Of a DNA stretch of 64,000 nucleotides, positions 1-18,709 are shown in pieces (the stretch's first letter is position 1; the number at the start of each line of letters is the position of its first letter). The stretch covers positions 1,488,001 through 1,552,000 of the forward strand of contig NZ_BAFN01000001.1 in NCBI RefSeq assembly GCF_000949635.1, read 5' to 3'. Source of the DNA: Candidatus Brocadia sinica JPN1 (GTDB lineage Bacteria; Planctomycetota; Brocadiia; Brocadiales; Brocadiaceae). The notes beneath the pieces were generated by a model that searched no databases, was not told the origin of the DNA, and saw only the letters and a list, made by a program, of their open reading frames with translations. A program made the translations under genes and the position numbers.

Positions 1-2154
1 GGTCGCGAAGGTGTAAGTAATTCCTCCGTCACCCGAGAGCATGACCGTGGCCCCATGGGCTGGCCCATCTGGGATGACGTCGAGGCTTATGCTCCCGAAG
101 TGCTGGTTCACCAGGTCGCTCGTGCCAGGGTCATGAGCCTCATACGTGCCGGTCAGGATCGTCCCCACGGGGAATTTACCGCAGTCTATAGCCGGAACGG
201 GGTTGCCGTTGAACTCGGCGCCGGTGATGGTCAAGGTAACCGGGGCGTATGGCTGAAGTGCAATATTTGCCGCAGGAACTGACGATGGGGCGGTGTTGTC
301 AACGCGTACCCTGATTACCTGGGCGCCGGGATAGAATGTGGGAGGACTGACATTCGGATCCTTCGCCTCCATCCTGATTTCCCATTCTCCCTCCATTGAT
401 GCGTTCGTCAGCCACCTGGCGAGTTTATCTACCAGCAGGAAGCGGGTGGAGGGAGCCGTGTGGTCTTCCAGGTACTCATACCAGCCCTCGCCAAGGCCAT
501 CCGCATCGTCGGTGGCCGTGAGGTTGAGGTTAAATATCGTGTCTCCAGGCGATTCCTCCAACTGTACTGCACCCACGAATTTTGTGACATCAACGTCAAC
601 CGTGTTGGTAAGCGGATGCCAGGTGTCAATACCGTCGTCTTTTCGTACCAGGATTCTGTACTTTAGCGGCAAAGCCCCGCCGCCAAAAGAATCAGGCAGG
701 GTGCCCGCAATACGTCCGGTGATGGTAATACCACCTCCAAAGGGGCTCAAGTTCACTGAAAAGATACCAATCTCCGCATCGCCTGTAGCCAGCCCGGTTG
801 CTGGATCAATGTCATCAACCGAGATGTCGCCAACGGTCTCGATAACCGGGGTACGTGCCTCCGCCTTTCCGTGCCGTAACTGGATAAGGCACTCCTCGCG
901 GTTTCCCCAGACCGGGACATAGTTCGGGTTTGCGGGGGGAGGTGGGGTCTCCCAGGATAGAATGGCGCGTAGACGGACGACCTTCGGCCCGGCCTCACAG
1001 GGCACTAGATATTGGGTGAAGTCTTTTTTGAGAAAAACAGCATACTGGACGTCCTCCGGCGGGATGGTCTGGAGGTCGTGGACCTGTACGGTGGCCGTGC
1101 CCATATAGATGAAACCACTGCCGTCTCCGAAGTCGATCCAGAAGGCTACGTACTCCGTTGACCCCTTGCCGCATAGCCCGCCGGAATAACCGTAAGGCCT
1201 TTTGACCGTGAGTACCGCCTCCAGCAGATCACGCTTGGAGCGAAGCCCGATGCACTTTAGCTCTTCAAAGCTGGTGTCTCCGTCCGTTACGACCTGAAGT
1301 TTGCCGAAAAGATCCGCGATTTCATTCGCGTTGAGTCCAAGGGACGCTAAAGGGCTGTCCCCGTTTGCTGTGACTAAGGCTGAGGTTGTTGTCTTAGCTG
1401 CCAGGAGCTTCTGTGCCTCTGCGAAGCCGAACCGGTGGACTGGCACGCCCTTGTCCGCATAGAGCGCCTTCCTCTGTGACAACGTTGGCGTCGCCAAAGG
1501 AGCGGCTTTGACCTTTATATTTGGGTCCAGGCCGGCAATAATTGGGCCAATCGGGTCGGGGATCTTGACCTGAAGGTTTTCCAGCCCTTTTGGCACATCA
1601 CCCACGAAGAAAGAGTACTTGGGATGAATCTGTACCTGGACGGTCATGACGTTCCCATAGACCGGCGTCCAATTGGGTTGATTTGCCGGCGGCGGCGTGT
1701 CCCAGGAAAGGATGGCCCGCACCCTGACAATGTTCTCGGTGGAGCAAAGCCTCTTGAACGGGGTGAAGTCCTTCCTCACGGCGTAACAGAGGGGCTTTTC
1801 TCCGGGGATGTTATGGACTCTCACGCTGTCCATTCCCACATCGTGCCAGACCCCGTTGTCGAATATGTCTACGTAGAATCGGACATACTCAAATGACCCC
1901 GGGCTGCAGATATCGCCTCCGTATCCAAACTCCTGCTTAACGTGGAGCGCGGCTTCCAGACGGTTGGATGGAGGGTTTAGCCCTACGCACATAAGCTCTT
2001 CGTAAGTCGTAATGCCTTGCAATAATTTGACTGGCTTATATGGACTCAGCTCCAGGTTGCCGAAGTAGTTGGGGTTTTGCAGGATCAGCGAACGAAACTG
2101 TGCCCGCTCTCGTTCTAATGTTGGTATATTTTCTGAAGTTCCACAAGTTTTCAT
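1..2154 (-). CDS. large protein with two internal repeats, partial (C-terminus beyond window)
   Basis: An open frame runs from ATG at 2154 to the window edge with no stop, so at least 718 residues are encoded. The ATG has a strong Shine-Dalgarno (GGAGGAG, 2157-2167). Two homologous segments of about 130 residues are visible: roughly residues 48-178 (opening TYEELMCVGL, closing near ILSWDTPPPANQPN) and 291-428 (SFEELKCIGL ... ILSWETPPPPANPN). Each carries a matching Y/F-x-V/I-D-F/I strand and a conserved cysteine pair. The later part looks like beta-sandwich repeats, with aspartate-rich DVDVTKF and DDADGLGEGWYEYL stretches. No signal peptide is seen. The family is not recognised. It is the last visible gene of the riboswitch-controlled minus-strand cluster and is more G+C-rich than the housekeeping genes. 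Structural or adhesive roles are only guesses. Confidence 0.85.
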   Translation of the reverse strand, partial: MKTCGTSENIPTLERERAQFRSLILQNPNYFGNLELSPYKPVKLLQGITTYEELMCVGLNPPSNRLEAALHVKQEFGYGGDICSPGSFEYVRFYVDIFDNGVWHDVGMDSVRVHNIPGEKPLCYAVRKDFTPFKRLCSTENIVRVRAILSWDTPPPANQPNWTPVYGNVMTVQVQIHPKYSFFVGDVPKGLENLQVKIPDPIGPIIAGLDPNIKVKAAPLATPTLSQRKALYADKGVPVHRFGFAEAQKLLAAKTTTSALVTANGDSPLASLGLNANEIADLFGKLQVVTDGDTSFEELKCIGLRSKRDLLEAVLTVKRPYGYSGGLCGKGSTEYVAFWIDFGDGSGFIYMGTATVQVHDLQTIPPEDVQYAVFLKKDFTQYLVPCEAGPKVVRLRAILSWETPPPPANPNYVPVWGNREECLIQLRHGKAEARTPVIETVGDISVDDIDPATGLATGDAEIGIFSVNLSPFGGGITITGRIAGTLPDSFGGGALPLKYRILVRKDDGIDTWHPLTNTVDVDVTKFVGAVQLEESPGDTIFNLNLTATDDADGLGEGWYEYLEDHTAPSTRFLLVDKLARWLTNASMEGEWEIRMEAKDPNVSPPTFYPGAQVIRVRVDNTAPSSVPAANIALQPYAPVTLTITGAEFNGNPVPAIDCGKFPVGTILTGTYEAHDPGTSDLVNQHFGSISLDVIPDGPAHGATVMLSGDGGITYTFAT

Positions 2155-2460
2155 CACTATCTCCTCCTTTGTTAAGCGGATGATTTTGCACCCACGTCTT
2201 TACTGACCATGGTAAGACCGCATCGAACCGATGCGGTTAGATCCACGGTTGTAACGCGTAAAATGTGGATCGTTCGGCTAAGCAATATTTCCGGAATAAA
2301 TCACAAAAGCATTCGTTTGCATTCACCTCCTTTCATAAGGCAAGAAGAGCCAAGACGGCGCATAAGGCGATTTTGACGAAGCATAGCAAAGGCGGCAACC
2401 CTGAGTTGGGCGAAGTTGTTCAGCTATCAACCGCACGCTAGGCGCCTTTTCTGATATTCT
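2155..2460 (-). other. long leader between riboswitch terminator and repeat-protein gene
   Basis: About 300 bases separate the riboswitch terminator from the ATG at 2154. The stretch contains a 9-bp hairpin (ACCGCATCG / CGATGCGGT, 2217-2237) and the possible 27-codon frame at 2301-2384. A G+C-rich segment at about 2340-2450 contains short inverted repeats (for example AGGCGCCTT). No other gene is recognisable. The length and structure suggest additional post-transcriptional control, but this is inference. Confidence 0.5.
2301..2384 (-). CDS. possible 27-aa leader peptide
   Basis: A short frame starts with MLRQNRLMRRLGSS and ends in MLL, lying in the leader of the repeat-protein gene. It is basic and contains a KGGECKR stretch; the GGAGGTGAA encoding GGE also looks like a Shine-Dalgarno for a nested 14-codon frame starting MQTNAF. 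There is no clear ribosome-binding site before its own ATG and no recognised homolog, so it may simply be structured leader RNA. Confidence 0.2.
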   Translation of the reverse strand: MLRQNRLMRRLGSSCLMKGGECKRMLL

Positions 2461-2517
2461 TAAAACAAAGAAGCCTTACTGCAAAGTTTTTACTAAACAT
2501 CTTCGGCAGTAAGGCTA
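2461..2517 (-). terminator. intrinsic terminator of riboswitch copy 1
   Basis: An 11-bp perfect stem (AGCCTTACTGC / GCAGTAAGGCT at 2473-2483 and 2507-2517) is followed on the minus strand by TCTTTGTTTTAAG. It sits just downstream of the c-di-GMP-I aptamer and is the likely expression platform. The same stem recurs at 5622-5670 after the second aptamer. Confidence 0.8.
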
Positions 2518-2531
2518 TCTTTTTCACTAAA

Positions 2532-2618
2532 GGATAAGGATCGTCTTTAACTACATCCTTGTATGTTGAAAGACCCTTTACATTGCGCCCCCTGATTACT
2601 CAGGGTTTGCCTTTATCG
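2532..2618 (-). ncRNA. c-di-GMP-I (GEMM-I) riboswitch aptamer, copy 1
   Basis: Read on the minus strand, the element has the GEMM-I landmarks in order: a P1 strand GATAAAGG running into GGCAAACC, a hairpin CCTGA-GTAA-TCAGG with a GNRA tetraloop, then a core GGGCGCAATG (consensus GGACGCAAAG), GGGTCTTT ... AAGGATGTAG ... AAAGAC, and the closing CCTTATCC that pairs with the 5' strand. It is about 87 nt long. The core has two substitutions from consensus (A to G and A to T). It lies downstream of the caspase gene and upstream of the repeat-protein gene, so it probably tunes the latter. Confidence 0.85.
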
Positions 2619-2702
2619 TATGTCTTTGTTTATTTCATTACCATCTACGTCTTCATGTAGTGCTCCACAGGTTGGCGTTAATGACAAGAAACACACGGCC
2701 AG

Positions 2703-3539
2703 TTAAATGGTAAATGGTTTCTGTTTTTCAAAGGCGCGGTTGATCTCACCCACCCGGAAATAGTTTGGCGTTTGGTCGGGTGGCATGCGGTTGACGATGG
2801 CGCGGCGAAAGGCCCGGTATCCCTTTTTAAATTTTCCTTCATTCCAGACCTGTAACAAATTAGCAGTAAACAATCCGTTAAACGTACCATCGGCTGACAA
2901 TTGATTGTCCTGACAGCCGGATATGAGGATTACGGAGGCATTGACTGCATCACGTGATTCCTTTAATTGAGGATCTTTTAAGATAGGATCATAAAATTTT
3001 TTGTTGTCACGATACGTGCGTACCGCCACTTCCATCGGCATGAAACGATACCGAATTTCCGGAGAGATTCCCTTTAAGCCCATTGTCCTCATGGCAGACT
3101 GATAATAAGCAAGCTTCGTTACCGTGCCACTGTGACAACTATCAGAAAAGACCAGGATACGCACACCCTGCGCAAATTTACCAAGCAAGGAGTAAATTTC
3201 GTCATCAACCAGTTCTCCATCATAGAGGCACCACGTTTCATCCTGTGCATCAGCTTCATCGCTGTTCAGGTCGGGGAGTTGGCCGCCGTGACCTGAATAG
3301 CTCAGCATAAAGATATCGCCGGATGTTAAAGTGCTGGCCGCCTTGTTGATTCCATCGATGACATTTGCCCGGGTGGCTTCTTTGGTGAGCAGGGTTTTTA
3401 CGTCAAACCCTTTTGATCTTGCAATCTCCGCCATGTCTTTGGCGTCCGCTTCGCAGGCATTGAGTTCTCCCGACCATCCGCCATAGTGCGCCGGGCTAAC
3501 GGCATTTAATCCCGTGGTTAAAGCAATCCCTTTTGACAT
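2703..3539 (-). CDS. caspase-family (C14) cysteine peptidase
   Basis: A 278-residue protein made of one caspase/metacaspase fold. The catalytic dyad is visible: His84 in SYSGHGGQ and Cys135 in FSDSCHSG, each at the end of a hydrophobic strand (GDIFML; VRILVF). An acidic stretch (DLNSDEADAQDE, 90-101) sits where caspases usually place substrate-binding and activation loops. There is no signal peptide, so a cytoplasmic location is expected. The start is well supported by AAAGGAGGACTT before ATG. Bacterial relatives (orthocaspases) often cleave after basic residues and some act in stress or defence; the substrate here is unknown. The gene lies between the exported C39-like protein and riboswitch copy 1, inside the c-di-GMP-linked cluster. 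Confidence 0.9.
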   Translation of the reverse strand: MSKGIALTTGLNAVSPAHYGGWSGELNACEADAKDMAEIARSKGFDVKTLLTKEATRANVIDGINKAASTLTSGDIFMLSYSGHGGQLPDLNSDEADAQDETWCLYDGELVDDEIYSLLGKFAQGVRILVFSDSCHSGTVTKLAYYQSAMRTMGLKGISPEIRYRFMPMEVAVRTYRDNKKFYDPILKDPQLKESRDAVNASVILISGCQDNQLSADGTFNGLFTANLLQVWNEGKFKKGYRAFRRAIVNRMPPDQTPNYFRVGEINRAFEKQKPFTI

Positions 3540-3606
3540 AAAGTCCTCCTTTTTGGTTAAGTTTGTAGGTAAGGGTCTGTTGCAAAATAACTATAAAAAC
3601 TCCTGC

Positions 3607-3630
3607 GGGTTCAAGTTGTAACTTGAACCC
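3607..3630 (-). terminator. hairpin downstream of the C39-like gene
   Basis: A perfect 11-bp stem (GGGTTCAAGTT / AACTTGAACCC) lies 48 bases past the stop of the 3678-4940 gene. On the minus strand it is followed by GCAGGAGTTTTTA, giving a weak U tract. It may be a terminator or an RNA-stabilising hairpin between that gene and the caspase gene. Confidence 0.5.
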
Positions 3631-3677
3631 CACGTTTTATATTATAGTAAGGGTAATGCGGATGTCGATAATGGTTA

Positions 3678-4940
3678 TCATCGTGGTTTCTTCTTTGATG
3701 ATTCTGACAGTACAAAACGAATTTCTCGGTTTTTCGATCCTAAGTTGAGGATTCCATCGCCGTCGATATCTTTGATGTGTTGGCGAACCTTCTCAAGGCC
3801 TTCTTCGTCATTCGGATCATTATTGGTTTGCAACCTATCGTGGAGATAGCCAATCCAGGGCCGACCCTTTGTTTTTCCACACTCAAAGACACGAACGGCA
3901 TGTCCGCCAGTGGGATTACCGTTATTGTCATCATAAGAAAAAACCAATTCCACATCTTCCCCTTTTTTAATCTCGTCACAGATAAATTTAAAGGTTACTT
4001 TAGCACCTCTATCTTTAGATTTAATCCCGCTGCTTCTGAAGTCACCGTTAGGAAGCGCTTCATCGGGTGGGTTTCCATAGCCACGTCCCTGGTGTTTGTG
4101 GATGAGCTTATTCTTCAAACCATTCTTTTTTAAATAAGAAAACTTTCCTTTCAGCATAGGTGTAAACCATACACCGTCGCCATCATTGCGTGCTGGTGCG
4201 CGGCGATCGGCCTCCATATCCAACTGTCCCACCAATGAATCATCACCCTTCAAACCGGGTTTATGGTCGTGGGGAACGTTGACTCCGAATCTGTCTTCCA
4301 AGTACTGGAGACTGTTTGCAATCGACATGGGAAAGCACTGATTCTTGGCCGTTTGTACATTCACAGCGTTTGGCTGTGTGTGTTTCGTGTTTTTTCCTCT
4401 GGGTCTGAACTGTATCAGATTAGGTGGTGGTGCTTCGCCGATCACCGCAGTCTGAGAATCGCCAGCGCCTTCGGCGTTCCAAAGTGCAACCCCAACATCA
4501 AAGTCGCCTCTTTCACCGTCGGAAAAATCGTCTTGCGGACTAGAAGCAAACTCTATGTGAGCGCTTAGTTCACTAACATCCGTAGGGGTACTGAGACCAA
4601 GGCTGAAGTATGTTGTGACTGTACCGTAGTTCACGTCAACAGGTAGATTCTGAACAACCCATCCAGCATCGGAGAAGATATTGAGAAAGCCGCTGGATAT
4701 ATCAGTTGAAGAGGACAGAAGCTCTGGATTTGCACTGACGCGGCCCCAATCTGAATTTTCCTGGGTTACAGCAGAAAAGACGAAATCCACTTGCTCAAAG
4801 TTAACACCCTGTCCGGGCCCCACGGTAATGCCATCCGCATTAGCGAGGGTTACCGTGGTATTGGCGGTGAAGATCCAAAGTCCGATTAACACCGGTAATA
4901 TCGTTGTGATCCTCTTTGTTACCGTGAACCTTTTTTTCAT
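3678..4940 (-). CDS. exported protein with predicted papain/C39-like peptidase domain
   Basis: A 420-residue protein with an N-terminal signal peptide (KKR start, hydrophobic 11-33, cut near TLANA). Residues about 35-170 look like an extracellular beta domain containing a D-x-D-x-G pattern. The C-terminal half has a cysteine-peptidase-like layout: Cys202 in NQCFPMSIANSLQYL at the start of a helix, His347 in GGHAVRVF and Asp368 in GYLHD. This matches C39/papain-like families by order and spacing only. A calcium-loop-like DIDGDGILN follows at 391-399. Shine-Dalgarno AAGGAGGG precedes ATG. It is probably exported across the inner membrane. The peptidase assignment is inference from motifs and could also describe an inactive fold. 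Confidence 0.75.
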   Translation of the reverse strand: MKKRFTVTKRITTILPVLIGLWIFTANTTVTLANADGITVGPGQGVNFEQVDFVFSAVTQENSDWGRVSANPELLSSSTDISSGFLNIFSDAGWVVQNLPVDVNYGTVTTYFSLGLSTPTDVSELSAHIEFASSPQDDFSDGERGDFDVGVALWNAEGAGDSQTAVIGEAPPPNLIQFRPRGKNTKHTQPNAVNVQTAKNQCFPMSIANSLQYLEDRFGVNVPHDHKPGLKGDDSLVGQLDMEADRRAPARNDGDGVWFTPMLKGKFSYLKKNGLKNKLIHKHQGRGYGNPPDEALPNGDFRSSGIKSKDRGAKVTFKFICDEIKKGEDVELVFSYDDNNGNPTGGHAVRVFECGKTKGRPWIGYLHDRLQTNNDPNDEEGLEKVRQHIKDIDGDGILNLGSKNREIRFVLSESSKKKPR

Positions 4941-4958
4941 TGTCTGTTCCCTCCTTAA

Positions 4959-5024
4959 CTAATTATGAGTGTCCTGCAAGGCTTGAAAAGCCTTGCAAAT
5001 AGCCGTATTCCAGCCTTTTTTCAT
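4959..5024 (-). CDS. 21-codon small ORF with strong ribosome-binding site
   Basis: The frame MKKGWNTAICKAFQALQDTH plus one further Asn and a stop is preceded by TAAGGAGGA eight bases before ATG, a better site than many real genes nearby. It lies between the LNPQPLPPG gene and the C39-like gene. A perfect 9-bp hairpin (4976-4996) is embedded in its coding sequence. It may be a small peptide or a translational leader for the next gene. Confidence 0.4.
   Translation of the reverse strand: MKKGWNTAICKAFQALQDTHN
4976..4996 (-). terminator. hairpin between LNPQPLPPG gene and C39-like gene
   Basis: GCAAGGCTT and AAGCCTTGC form a perfect 9-bp stem with a 3-base loop. No U tract follows, so it is more likely an attenuating or processing hairpin than a complete terminator. 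It overlaps the 21-codon frame. Confidence 0.4.
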
Positions 5025-5094
5025 CTTTAAAATCCTCCTTACATCTGGTATACTATTGCTTAGCCACTTGGGTGGCCTGGTGCCACAGTAATCA

Positions 5095-5457
5095 TCAATC
5101 ATCGACAAACTCGCGAATCTGCGATCCGATTGCCGTGGTTATCCTTTTTGACTGCTCTGTATTGCCCGACACCTCGGCGAGCTGATATTGTGTTACCGCT
5201 CGATCAATTACCGCGCGCGAAAGGAACGCAGCATACCAGGGCTGCGGTCCTGGTCCATAGCGCCAGGGATCAGGGTGAGGGCTAGCTCCGGGTGGGAGTG
5301 GCTGCGGGTTCAGCAGCGCCCATGACAAGTCGCGGAGAGCTTGGGCAACCGGACCGATAGTACCATACTGCCCCCATGGATCATCGGGGTTTGGATAAGG
5401 CACGGCATCGAGCAAATTAACCAATGCGGTTTTCGTGAGAGTGATGTTTTCATTCAT
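5095..5457 (-). CDS. LNPQPLPPG-motif protein
   Basis: A 120-residue protein with a central LLNPQPLPPGASPHPDPWRYGPGPQPW segment (about 48-75), rich in proline, tryptophan and glycine and flanked by helical ends. The LNPQPLPPG motif recurs in small uncharacterised bacterial proteins; no function is known to me. The frame is open 13 codons further upstream, but ATG at 5457 is chosen because CGGAGAA lies eight bases before it and the upstream ATG has no such site. No signal peptide is seen. It is the first gene after riboswitch copy 2 and its terminator, so its expression is probably c-di-GMP dependent. Confidence 0.75.
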   Translation of the reverse strand: MNENITLTKTALVNLLDAVPYPNPDDPWGQYGTIGPVAQALRDLSWALLNPQPLPPGASPHPDPWRYGPGPQPWYAAFLSRAVIDRAVTQYQLAEVSGNTEQSKRITTAIGSQIREFVDD

Positions 5458-5610
5458 GGTTTGATTTCTCCGTTTGTTTTTCCTGCCGAACAGCATTACG
5501 TAGGTATACGAAAAGTTGCAACATAATACGGCTTAGTACCGATAATACGCTTAGTGGTAACTTGTTATAGCCCTATTTGGTCATATAACTAAACCCCTTT
5601 TTTTACCCGT

Positions 5611-5670
5611 TAAAATAAAAAAGCCTTACTGCAAAGATATTTTATGGAAAACATCTTCGGCAGTAAGGCT
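5611..5670 (-). terminator. intrinsic terminator of riboswitch copy 2
   Basis: Stem AGCCTTACTGC / GCAGTAAGGCT (5622-5632, 5660-5670) is followed on the minus strand by TTTTTTATTTTAA, a strong U tract. It lies 15 bases past the aptamer, as expected for a transcription-terminating expression platform. Confidence 0.88.
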
Positions 5671-5685
5671 ATCTTTTTCGCTAAA

Positions 5686-5772
5686 GGATAAGGCGCGTCT
5701 TTAACTACATCCTTGTACGTTGAAAGACCCTTTACTTTGCGTCCCCTGATTACTCAGGGTTTGCCCTTATCG
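5686..5772 (-). ncRNA. c-di-GMP-I (GEMM-I) riboswitch aptamer, copy 2
   Basis: On the minus strand: P1 GATAAGG, then GGGCAAACC, a CCTGA-GTAA-TCAGG hairpin with GNRA tetraloop, the exact core GGACGCAAAG, GGGTCTTT ... AAGGATGTAG ... AAAGAC, and CCTTATC closing P1. All main GEMM-I consensus elements are present. The family binds cyclic di-GMP (a variant binds cGAMP). The element with its terminator shares roughly 170 bp with copy 1, implying duplication. The regulated gene is the LNPQPLPPG gene and possibly the whole cluster. Confidence 0.92.
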
Positions 5773-5826
5773 TATGTTTTTGTTTATTCCTTCACTTTGT
5801 AAGACCAGCATTATCACATGCGATTC

Positions 5827-5854
5827 AAAATAACACGATATCGTTAGATGTCAA
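5827..5854 (-). promoter_or_regulatory. sigma70-type promoter for the riboswitch cluster
   Basis: On the minus strand a perfect TTGACA (5849-5854) is separated by 16 bases from TATTTT (5827-5832). Transcription would start about 50 bases before the riboswitch aptamer. It is divergent from the nadC promoter. Confidence 0.6.
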
Positions 5855-17539: not shown

Positions 17540-18709
17540 TTATTTGGTTTTTCCTGTGTCCGTGCCCCTCGGCTGGTTTAACATTTCCTGGATTTGTTTG
17601 AACGTCTTTGTATCTACACGAAGCTTTCCTTTGATATCTGAAACCCCCAATCGTGTGGCCATATCATCGACATCGAGAAGATTTATATCAAGACTTGATA
17701 TATTCACATCTGCAAGGTTGACATTGCGGGCTGCTTCCAGTGCTACAATAATGTCTCCGCCCATGCCTGAAATTGCCTCTCTTCGCAACCGTTCTCCCTC
17801 TGCCTGCGATTGTTTAATTAAAAGATTTCCGTCTGCTTTCCGTTGCTGCTTGTAAAGGTCGCCTTCTGCCTTCTTCTGTATTAAATATTTGTCTGCCTCG
17901 GCGAGAAGTTCTATTGTCTTTTTTGTGGTTTCGGCATCAAGTACGGTGATTGATCTCTCCTTATCACCGGTAATCTTTTGGGCAATGGCTTCTGTGTCCG
18001 CATCGATCGTTTGAGTAATACCTCTTTGTTCGGCAGCAAGCGCCTTTGATTTGTTCAGAACGTTATCAAGTTCAGCTAATTTGATGTTTTTAATCTTTCT
18101 TTCCAGTTGCGGGTCAAATCGCAATTCTAAAATGAGCACATCAATTATGTCAACATGGCGGGGAACTAGTCTCTCCGTAAGCTGTATTTTAAATTCTGCT
18201 GCCCTCTTACGTTTTTCTTCCGGATTGTACAAATCTCGTTCCACCATTTTACCGAGCACACTTCTGGCGATATCGCGTGTCTCATTTTCTACGATGATCT
18301 TGTACCGTTCTCCAACGCCTATATCCTGACGCAGTTGCCACGCCTCTCCTCTTTTAATTTGATATTTAACGATTATATCGGCTGAGACATCGTAATCATC
18401 TGCGGTTCTGATAGCAGCTTCCTTCCGCTCGTCGTGTCCCAGGCGGGAAGGCTCTTTGGCAAGTTCGAGTGTTTGTACTGTGCTGTCATAAAGATCCCAT
18501 TGATCAATAGCAGTAACTGCCCTGTGCCATCCTGGTCCGTAATCCTTCTGCACGATACCTCGTTTTACACCCCATATGATTGTTCTTACACCAACTTGAT
18601 CGACGCCTACTTTAATAACAAAGAATTTTATACCAATGACAAACGCTGCAATAAATGCGACGATTCCAATAGGAATTATATATTTTGCGGTAATCTTGCC
18701 TATGTGCAT
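17540..18709 (-). CDS. SPFH/band 7 (prohibitin-like) membrane protein B
   Basis: About 389 residues: one N-terminal membrane segment (PIGIVAFIAAFVIGIKFFV), an SPFH domain (VGVDQVGVRT to the SVLGKM/LVPRHVDIIDVLILELRF region, about 28-190), then a charged coiled coil (200-330) rich in Lys, Glu and Ala, and a tail with GGDIIVALEAARN. SPFH proteins form large ring or cage scaffolds on membranes, often with proteases. ATG at 18709 is preferred (AGAGGTGAAA before it) over an in-frame TTG seven codons upstream. The partner gene encodes a protein of nearly equal length and lies 46 bases upstream; the arrangement resembles HflK/HflC-type pairs but no hflX/hflB neighbours are seen. Confidence 0.85.
   Translation of the reverse strand: MHIGKITAKYIIPIGIVAFIAAFVIGIKFFVIKVGVDQVGVRTIIWGVKRGIVQKDYGPGWHRAVTAIDQWDLYDSTVQTLELAKEPSRLGHDERKEAAIRTADDYDVSADIIVKYQIKRGEAWQLRQDIGVGERYKIIVENETRDIARSVLGKMVERDLYNPEEKRKRAAEFKIQLTERLVPRHVDIIDVLILELRFDPQLERKIKNIKLAELDNVLNKSKALAAEQRGITQTIDADTEAIAQKITGDKERSITVLDAETTKKTIELLAEADKYLIQKKAEGDLYKQQRKADGNLLIKQSQAEGERLRREAISGMGGDIIVALEAARNVNLADVNISSLDINLLDVDDMATRLGVSDIKGKLRVDTKTFKQIQEMLNQPRGTDTGKTK

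Follow-up and report, generated by a model that had tools for sequence, protein, structure and literature searches.

To our knowledge, little has been learned of the signals that induce bacterial caspases, and the locus described here raises the question whether a caspase gene behind a riboswitch for cyclic di-GMP (c-di-GMP) forms one functional system with the genes around it. The locus lies at one end of a 64,000-nucleotide window (G000:C1:1488001-1552000; bare positions are window positions) of the 4.08-Mb genome of an anammox Candidatus Brocadia, hereafter the home genome. A first-pass annotation had read five consecutive minus-strand frames as a candidate system composed of a caspase-family peptidase, a C39-like peptidase, a small LNPQPLPPG protein (LNPQ), a 21-codon peptide and a giant protein with two repeats, and had suggested that it might mature and export peptides, control cell death or defence, or assemble surface structures in response to c-di-GMP. 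On balance, we hold a different organization to be probable, namely a c-di-GMP-controlled, modular accessory island that is centred on the metacaspase and belongs to a very large c-di-GMP-I riboswitch regulon. The features are collected in Table 1, in which P0002 denotes the predicted peptidase, P0007 the giant two-repeat protein, P0005 a B12 radical S-adenosylmethionine (radical-SAM) protein and P0006 the EPAH protein, and in which promoter-like sites are consensus matches only.

The caspase gene and its riboswitches

The caspase-family peptidase with His84 and Cys135 that had been proposed was borne out by its Pfam match, by a full-length match to PDB entry 3BIJ (GSU0716; 64% identity, E=1.8e-118) and by its relatives, of which 35 of 36 retain His84 and all 36 retain Cys135. 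As in GSU0716 (family C14), the catalytic His and Cys are present in a single domain without additional modules, and the protein carries no signal peptide. As a C14 metacaspase, it would be expected to cleave after Arg or Lys. The model of EACC1-associated caspases (NF047832) gave 26.1 bits, below its cut-off of 140 bits, the PADLOC defence caspase gave only a partial match of 38 bits, which is consistent with a common fold only, and no defence partners were recognised in the window or at related caspase loci. The orthocaspase MaOC1 is reported to adjoin a toxin-antitoxin module (PMC7935541), which resembles the present case in that a caspase homologue stands beside a small accessory module; unlike MaOC1, the Brocadia caspase loci include no recognised toxin-antitoxin gene among their listed neighbours.

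The two proposed riboswitches were likewise confirmed, as both aptamers exceed the gathering thresholds of the Rfam covariance models that were used for all riboswitch calls. Riboswitch A is 88-89% identical with the caspase riboswitch of other Brocadia, and 91% with a further copy in L037, and is the orthologue of that riboswitch. Riboswitch B is the closest relative of A within the genome (83% identity, while the 99th percentile of all aptamer pairs is 79%) and is a paralogue of A that heads the giant gene. In both, the ligand-free fold joins the aptamer's 3' strand to the downstream arm, so that the expression platform conflicts with the aptamer. The same arrangement is known from the pilM riboswitch of Geobacter metallireducens, a binder of cyclic GMP-AMP (cGAMP) and an ON switch, where an intrinsic terminator uses the aptamer 3' strand as its 5' part and the two structures are mutually exclusive (PMC9262584). 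Unlike pilM, both window aptamers carry the G of c-di-GMP binders at the ligand-selective position, which was aligned by eye; a G20A change confers cGAMP binding (PMC6274999). In Brocadia the caspase gene lies under a c-di-GMP-I riboswitch, in contrast to six non-Brocadia caspase loci tested, none of which had a riboswitch.

Table 1. Coordinates of the features at the caspase locus
Feature	Position	Strand	Basis or remark
Promoter-like site 5' of riboswitch A	5827-5854	-	TTGACA-16-TATTTT, 10/12, TG before -10
Riboswitch A, c-di-GMP-I aptamer	5655-5774	-	RF03167, 65.2 bits (cut-off 59 bits)
Terminator of riboswitch A	5616-5671	-	5' arm = aptamer 3' strand (AGCCTTACTGC / GCAGTAAGGCT + T6)
Insertion of about 1.94 kb in caspase leader, relative to L035/L037/L070	3573-5511		contains LNPQ and P0002
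LNPQPLPPG protein, N-terminal 120 aa, frameshift-truncated	5095-5457	-	homologue comparison
7-bp tandem duplication (GATGATT)x2 splitting LNPQ gene	5090-5103	-	sequence
"21-codon peptide", LNPQ C-terminal remnant	4959-5024	-	frame ...DDYCGTRPPKWLSNSIPDVRRILKMKKGW...
P0002, signal-bearing predicted cysteine peptidase (C202/H347/D368), 420 aa	3678-4940	-	homologue alignment
Promoter-like site 5' of caspase	3641-3668	-	TCGACA-16-TATAAT, 11/12
Caspase, GSU0716 (3BIJ)-type bacterial metacaspase, 278 aa	2703-3539	-	Pfam PF00656 Peptidase_C14, 7.8e-28
Riboswitch B, c-di-GMP-I aptamer	2502-2621	-	RF01051, 57.2 bits (cut-off 35 bits)
Terminator of riboswitch B	2464-2518	-	5' arm common with aptamer 3' strand
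Giant P0007, 784 aa (785 from upstream GTG)	1-2154	-	stop about 200 bp outside window (G000:C1:~1487800)
B12 radical-SAM P0005	G000:C1:1485672-1487450	-	beyond window edge, 3' of giant
EPAH-repeat protein P0006, 237 aa	G000:C1:1484584-1485297 (L002:14584-15297)	-	beyond window edge

The c-di-GMP-I riboswitch regulon

The regulon is unusually large. The home genome holds 55 c-di-GMP-I aptamers above the cut-off; per-genome matches number 19-56 in the genus Brocadia, 1-28 in other genera of the family and none in one other family. Compared with these 55 near-uniform copies, the prediction for C. difficile is smaller, with 16 c-di-GMP riboswitches, of which 12 belong to class I and 4 to class II (PMC6200980). 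The expression platform is nearly invariant across the home-genome aptamers (GAYAGCCTTACTGCCGAAGATGTTT...GCAGTAAGGCTTTTTT), and in 51 of the 55 the minimum-energy fold without ligand has the 22 bases at the aptamer's 3' end paired to the downstream terminator arm. Since this shared-strand terminator is built as in the pilM ON switch, c-di-GMP should, by analogy, turn transcription on at these riboswitches. Signal-like N-termini, scored with a home-made heuristic against a small and local background set, occur in 31/51 first genes 3' of the riboswitches and in 8/37 background genes (p=0.0004). A literature search retrieved no paper on c-di-GMP riboswitches in anammox Brocadia, and the large shared-strand-terminator regulon is probably more important than the caspase finding itself.

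Two further members deserve mention. A second caspase-domain gene (G000:C1:703375-705227; L152:376-2228, minus strand), a fusion with the hydrolase-like N-terminus 'GKIIFVHGIGDSKSDYW', begins directly behind a c-di-GMP-I aptamer, at a distance of about 50 nt or less, and hence both caspase-family genes found in the genome sit behind such riboswitches. The aptamer at G000:C1:1091520-1091639, which precedes a 564-aa protein whose N-terminus is of the type 'CGP..LEMKVGET', as in two P0002 homologues from f81 (another family of the same order), reads AAAGACAAACC where most others read AAAGGCAAACC, and its ligand may therefore differ.

Conservation and turnover of the locus within Brocadia

In L035, L037 and L070, the gene order is pyrG-kdsB-nadC, followed by the riboswitch and, 143-371 bp on, by the caspase. 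The home window occupies the same nadC-adjacent site, and its homology to these three leaders stops at about 5511 and restarts at about 3572, which brackets an insertion with LNPQ and P0002 that is unique to the home genome among those sampled. In L143, a locus at a different chromosomal site of another Brocadia species (G209), the riboswitch, a decayed caspase, the giant gene, a papain-like lipoprotein, a 236-aa protein, the B12 radical-SAM and the EPAH gene follow each other on one strand, with identities to the home genome of 48% for the giant, 88% for the radical-SAM and 85% for the EPAH protein. The same radical-SAM and EPAH genes stand 3' of the giant in the home genome, just beyond the window. 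The riboswitches, caspase, predicted cysteine peptidase and repeat protein of the first-pass annotation are real, and the run continues outside the window with these two genes; its interpretation as a five-gene system does not hold. Within Brocadia, what is conserved is the riboswitch control of the caspase, and what recurs in G209 is a related set, not the five-gene combination. Values of dN/dS are 0.03-0.10 for the caspase, radical-SAM, EPAH and C70 lipoprotein genes (0.07-0.08 for radical-SAM and EPAH), which points to strong purifying selection on all four.

Other modules were observed at other loci. Behind the caspase of L070 (11003-14150) come a degenerate aptamer that lacks a terminator, the same papain-like lipoprotein as in L143, a 247-aa protein, a small protein (...EYGTGPRPPHWWNIKH...) that contains ...GTGPRPPHWW..., and a SPASM-like radical-SAM. 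At L036:3535-9659 and L037:5840-12474, which stand at different chromosomal sites, two tandem 'GLERELELYxGEEYE' proteins and two further proteins (424/408 and 277/398 aa) adjoin the caspase; three of the L036 proteins were tested and gave no Pfam match.

The whole looks like an anchor of switch and caspase to which interchangeable modules are attached, and could reflect either a joint function or a hot spot that collects genes. The latter view can be taken further: there may be no system at all, only unrelated single genes behind members of a genome-wide riboswitch regulon, with the riboswitch pair as a duplication hot spot that gathers acquired genes. We give this explanation nearly an even chance, since the neighbours differ at every Brocadia caspase locus, LNPQ is broken, most relatives lack P0002, the giant and EPAH, LNPQ and the giant have a G+C content of 55-56% versus 43% in the window, and no partner was found with the caspase outside Brocadia. 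It accounts less well for the giant, B12 radical-SAM and EPAH genes, which remain with riboswitch and caspase in two species that have them at separate places on the chromosome, for the purifying selection on radical-SAM and EPAH, and for the pair of C70 lipoprotein and 236/247-aa protein, which repeats near the caspase in two genomes.

The modular island centred on the metacaspase remains the reading that we prefer, and several observations weigh against it. The caspase is patchy: 11 Brocadia genomes have between them five intact copies and one that is clearly decayed. As it has decayed in G209, it is dispensable. In B. pituitae it stands at another site with no riboswitch directly upstream, and other caspase types of the family are not systematically beside riboswitches. 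The promoter-like site between P0002 and the caspase, matching 11 of 12 consensus positions, could bypass riboswitch A, so that it is not certain whether read-through governs the caspase of this strain. The enrichment of signal-like N-termini, too, is measured against a background set that is small and local.

Genes inserted between riboswitch A and the caspase

The small LNPQPLPPG protein turned out not to be intact. Its frame ends in ...REFVDD and continues one frame over as ...DDYCGTRPPKW...MKKGWNTAICKAFQALQDTHN, because a 7-bp tandem duplication splits the gene; as the reading frame resumes in the frame of the supposed 21-codon peptide, that peptide is the end of the broken LNPQ gene and not a gene of its own. 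For comparison, the homologue on a Thiothrix plasmid is a continuous protein of 170 aa that reads through ...DDWCGTRPPKWPFP..., and Pseudomonadota homologues have LNPQPLPP followed by DDWCPTRPK. The gene is taken as a pseudogene; the duplication may, less probably, be an assembly error. We rejected a place for LNPQPLPPG in a caspase system: the Pseudomonadota homologues (L125-L127) are lone genes with no caspase nearby, and no caspase is among the annotated genes of the Thiothrix plasmid. A common origin of the LNPQ and EPAH proteins was not accepted either, the evidence being a short PxPDPW match with E=0.003 in a single comparison. A literature search for LNPQPLPP found no paper.

P0002 bears a signal peptide, and its C202, H347 and D368 are invariant in three sequences, itself and two distant homologues (43-53% identity), among more than 100 invariant columns. 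These homologues were found only in two f81 genomes, within proteins of about 1,200 aa. The C...H...D order is comparable to that of the papain-like C70 and C39_2 families (PF12385, PF13529), yet P0002 itself matches neither; its assignment to C39, C39_2 or C70 was rejected, as no match to Pfam, NCBIfam or PDB sequences was obtained with the sequence alone or as a profile, and a profile comparison with the C70 pair (hhalign) gave a probability of 0.2%. A C70/C39_2-type lipoprotein does adjoin the caspase region in L070 and L143. Of the original description, the signal peptide and the conserved C/H/D pattern stand, and the C39-like character does not. Single-sequence AlphaFold2 models of P0002 and of the giant had a pLDDT (predicted local distance difference test) of 32, were uninformative and were discarded.

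The originally proposed system, in which caspase, C39-like peptidase and LNPQPLPPG protein would mature and export peptides or act in cell death or defence, is, in our judgement, very improbable. Its frames, riboswitches and catalytic residues exist; against it stand the LNPQ pseudogene, a P0002 without family or fold support, the restriction of the LNPQ and P0002 pair to an insertion unique to the home genome among those sampled, the lack of an exporter and the weak PADLOC match. A single transcript of five genes is argued against by the terminator-controlled second riboswitch and by the promoter-like site before the caspase. The proposal is largely refuted by a condition that the first-pass annotation had itself set, as the combination does not co-occur outside Brocadia: homologues of LNPQ, P0002, giant, radical-SAM and EPAH were found at none of 37 caspase loci in genomes of the Genome Taxonomy Database (GTDB; flanks up to 10 kb), none of these partners was near any of 33 caspase loci outside Brocadia, and LNPQ was found in none of 21 whole caspase genomes, searched with a two-sequence profile (A2) that distant members could escape.

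The giant protein, radical-SAM enzyme and EPAH protein

The two repeats of roughly 130 residues reported for the giant protein were verified (43% identity, E=1e-35), and the frame is not open-ended but reaches its stop shortly beyond the window. The leader of the giant gene (window 2157-2450; L143:10044-10350) shows conservation across two Brocadia species; in it are a tiny frame with a ribosome-binding site (MQTNAFVIYSGNIA* / MNDFMMYDGSIA*) and a hairpin that is also conserved, and it may encode a leader peptide or contain an additional cis-RNA. The giant repeats were found in none of 345 genomes of the phylum of G251, a deltaproteobacterial genome with a caspase, plasmid searches with the giant and EPAH proteins gave no matches, and neither did a PHROGs search.

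P0006 contains four EPAH motifs (WVEPAHP, WMEPAHF, WQEPAHW and VMEPAHF), as does its G209 counterpart. Among 392 genomes of the phylum it occurs only in these two, and 398 Pseudomonadota genomes yielded only four marginal matches (E 0.006-0.05). G/C-run inverted repeats (CCCCCTTA...GGGGG type) lie between the genes around the radical-SAM (L002:15340-15660 and 17560-17680) and resemble dispersed repeats in the L037 caspase leader.

The adjacency of radical-SAM and EPAH genes, their identities and low dN/dS in two species, and the fourfold motif in both proteins would suit a protein-modification pathway like that of ribosomally synthesized and post-translationally modified peptides (RiPPs), in which the B12 radical-SAM would modify the four EPAH motifs, the caspase or papain-like peptidases would process the product, and c-di-GMP would induce the whole. 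P0005 matches models of B12 radical-SAM methyltransferases, including the RiPP C-methyltransferase TIGR03975, yet stays far below every curated cut-off (TIGR03975, 78.5 bits versus 281.9; best model HpnR, 107 versus 650). Moreover, 237 aa is an unusual length for the precursor of a RiPP, neither a leader/core layout nor an exporter nor a recognition element was found, and the arrangement is known from two examples only. We regard such a pathway as quite improbable. A broader c-di-GMP-induced system, in which metacaspase, papain-like peptidase, and B12 radical-SAM with its EPAH partner would act together, by modification and regulated proteolysis, on the envelope or on the EPAH and giant proteins during granule formation, seems unlikely to us as well, if less so; in it, RNA would couple a bacterial caspase to a second messenger.

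Proposed mechanism and implications

The aptamers, their shared-strand terminators, synteny, insertion, frameshift and purifying selection are observed, and from them the following course of events is inferred for the modular island that we favour. Transcription would start 5' of the riboswitch. Without c-di-GMP, the aptamer 3' strand would pair downstream, the terminator would form and RNA polymerase would stop; with c-di-GMP, the folded aptamer would retain its 3' strand and the genes behind it would be read. Riboswitch A would be the ancestral caspase switch and riboswitch B the paralogue at the head of the giant gene, and Brocadia species would have placed different modules behind the switch: LNPQ with the predicted peptidase, the giant, the papain-like lipoprotein with the 236-247-aa protein, the B12 radical-SAM with EPAH, or the GLERELELY proteins. 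At high c-di-GMP, as in sessile or granular growth, the caspase and the modules would be switched on; within granules, the caspase might take part in turning over proteins or in regulated death, and secreted peptidases would act at the cell envelope. The likely role would be controlled proteolysis and remodelling of envelope or proteins in the sessile, granule-forming state.

A correlation of c-di-GMP with extracellular polymeric substances in anammox sludge is cited in PMC11224092. The regulon, with its roughly 55 c-di-GMP-I riboswitches per genome and its many putative secreted proteins, would give c-di-GMP a concrete path to the formation of granules and biofilm. For the caspases, the sequence directly proposes c-di-GMP as an inducer, which would act on the caspase mRNA by way of an RNA switch.

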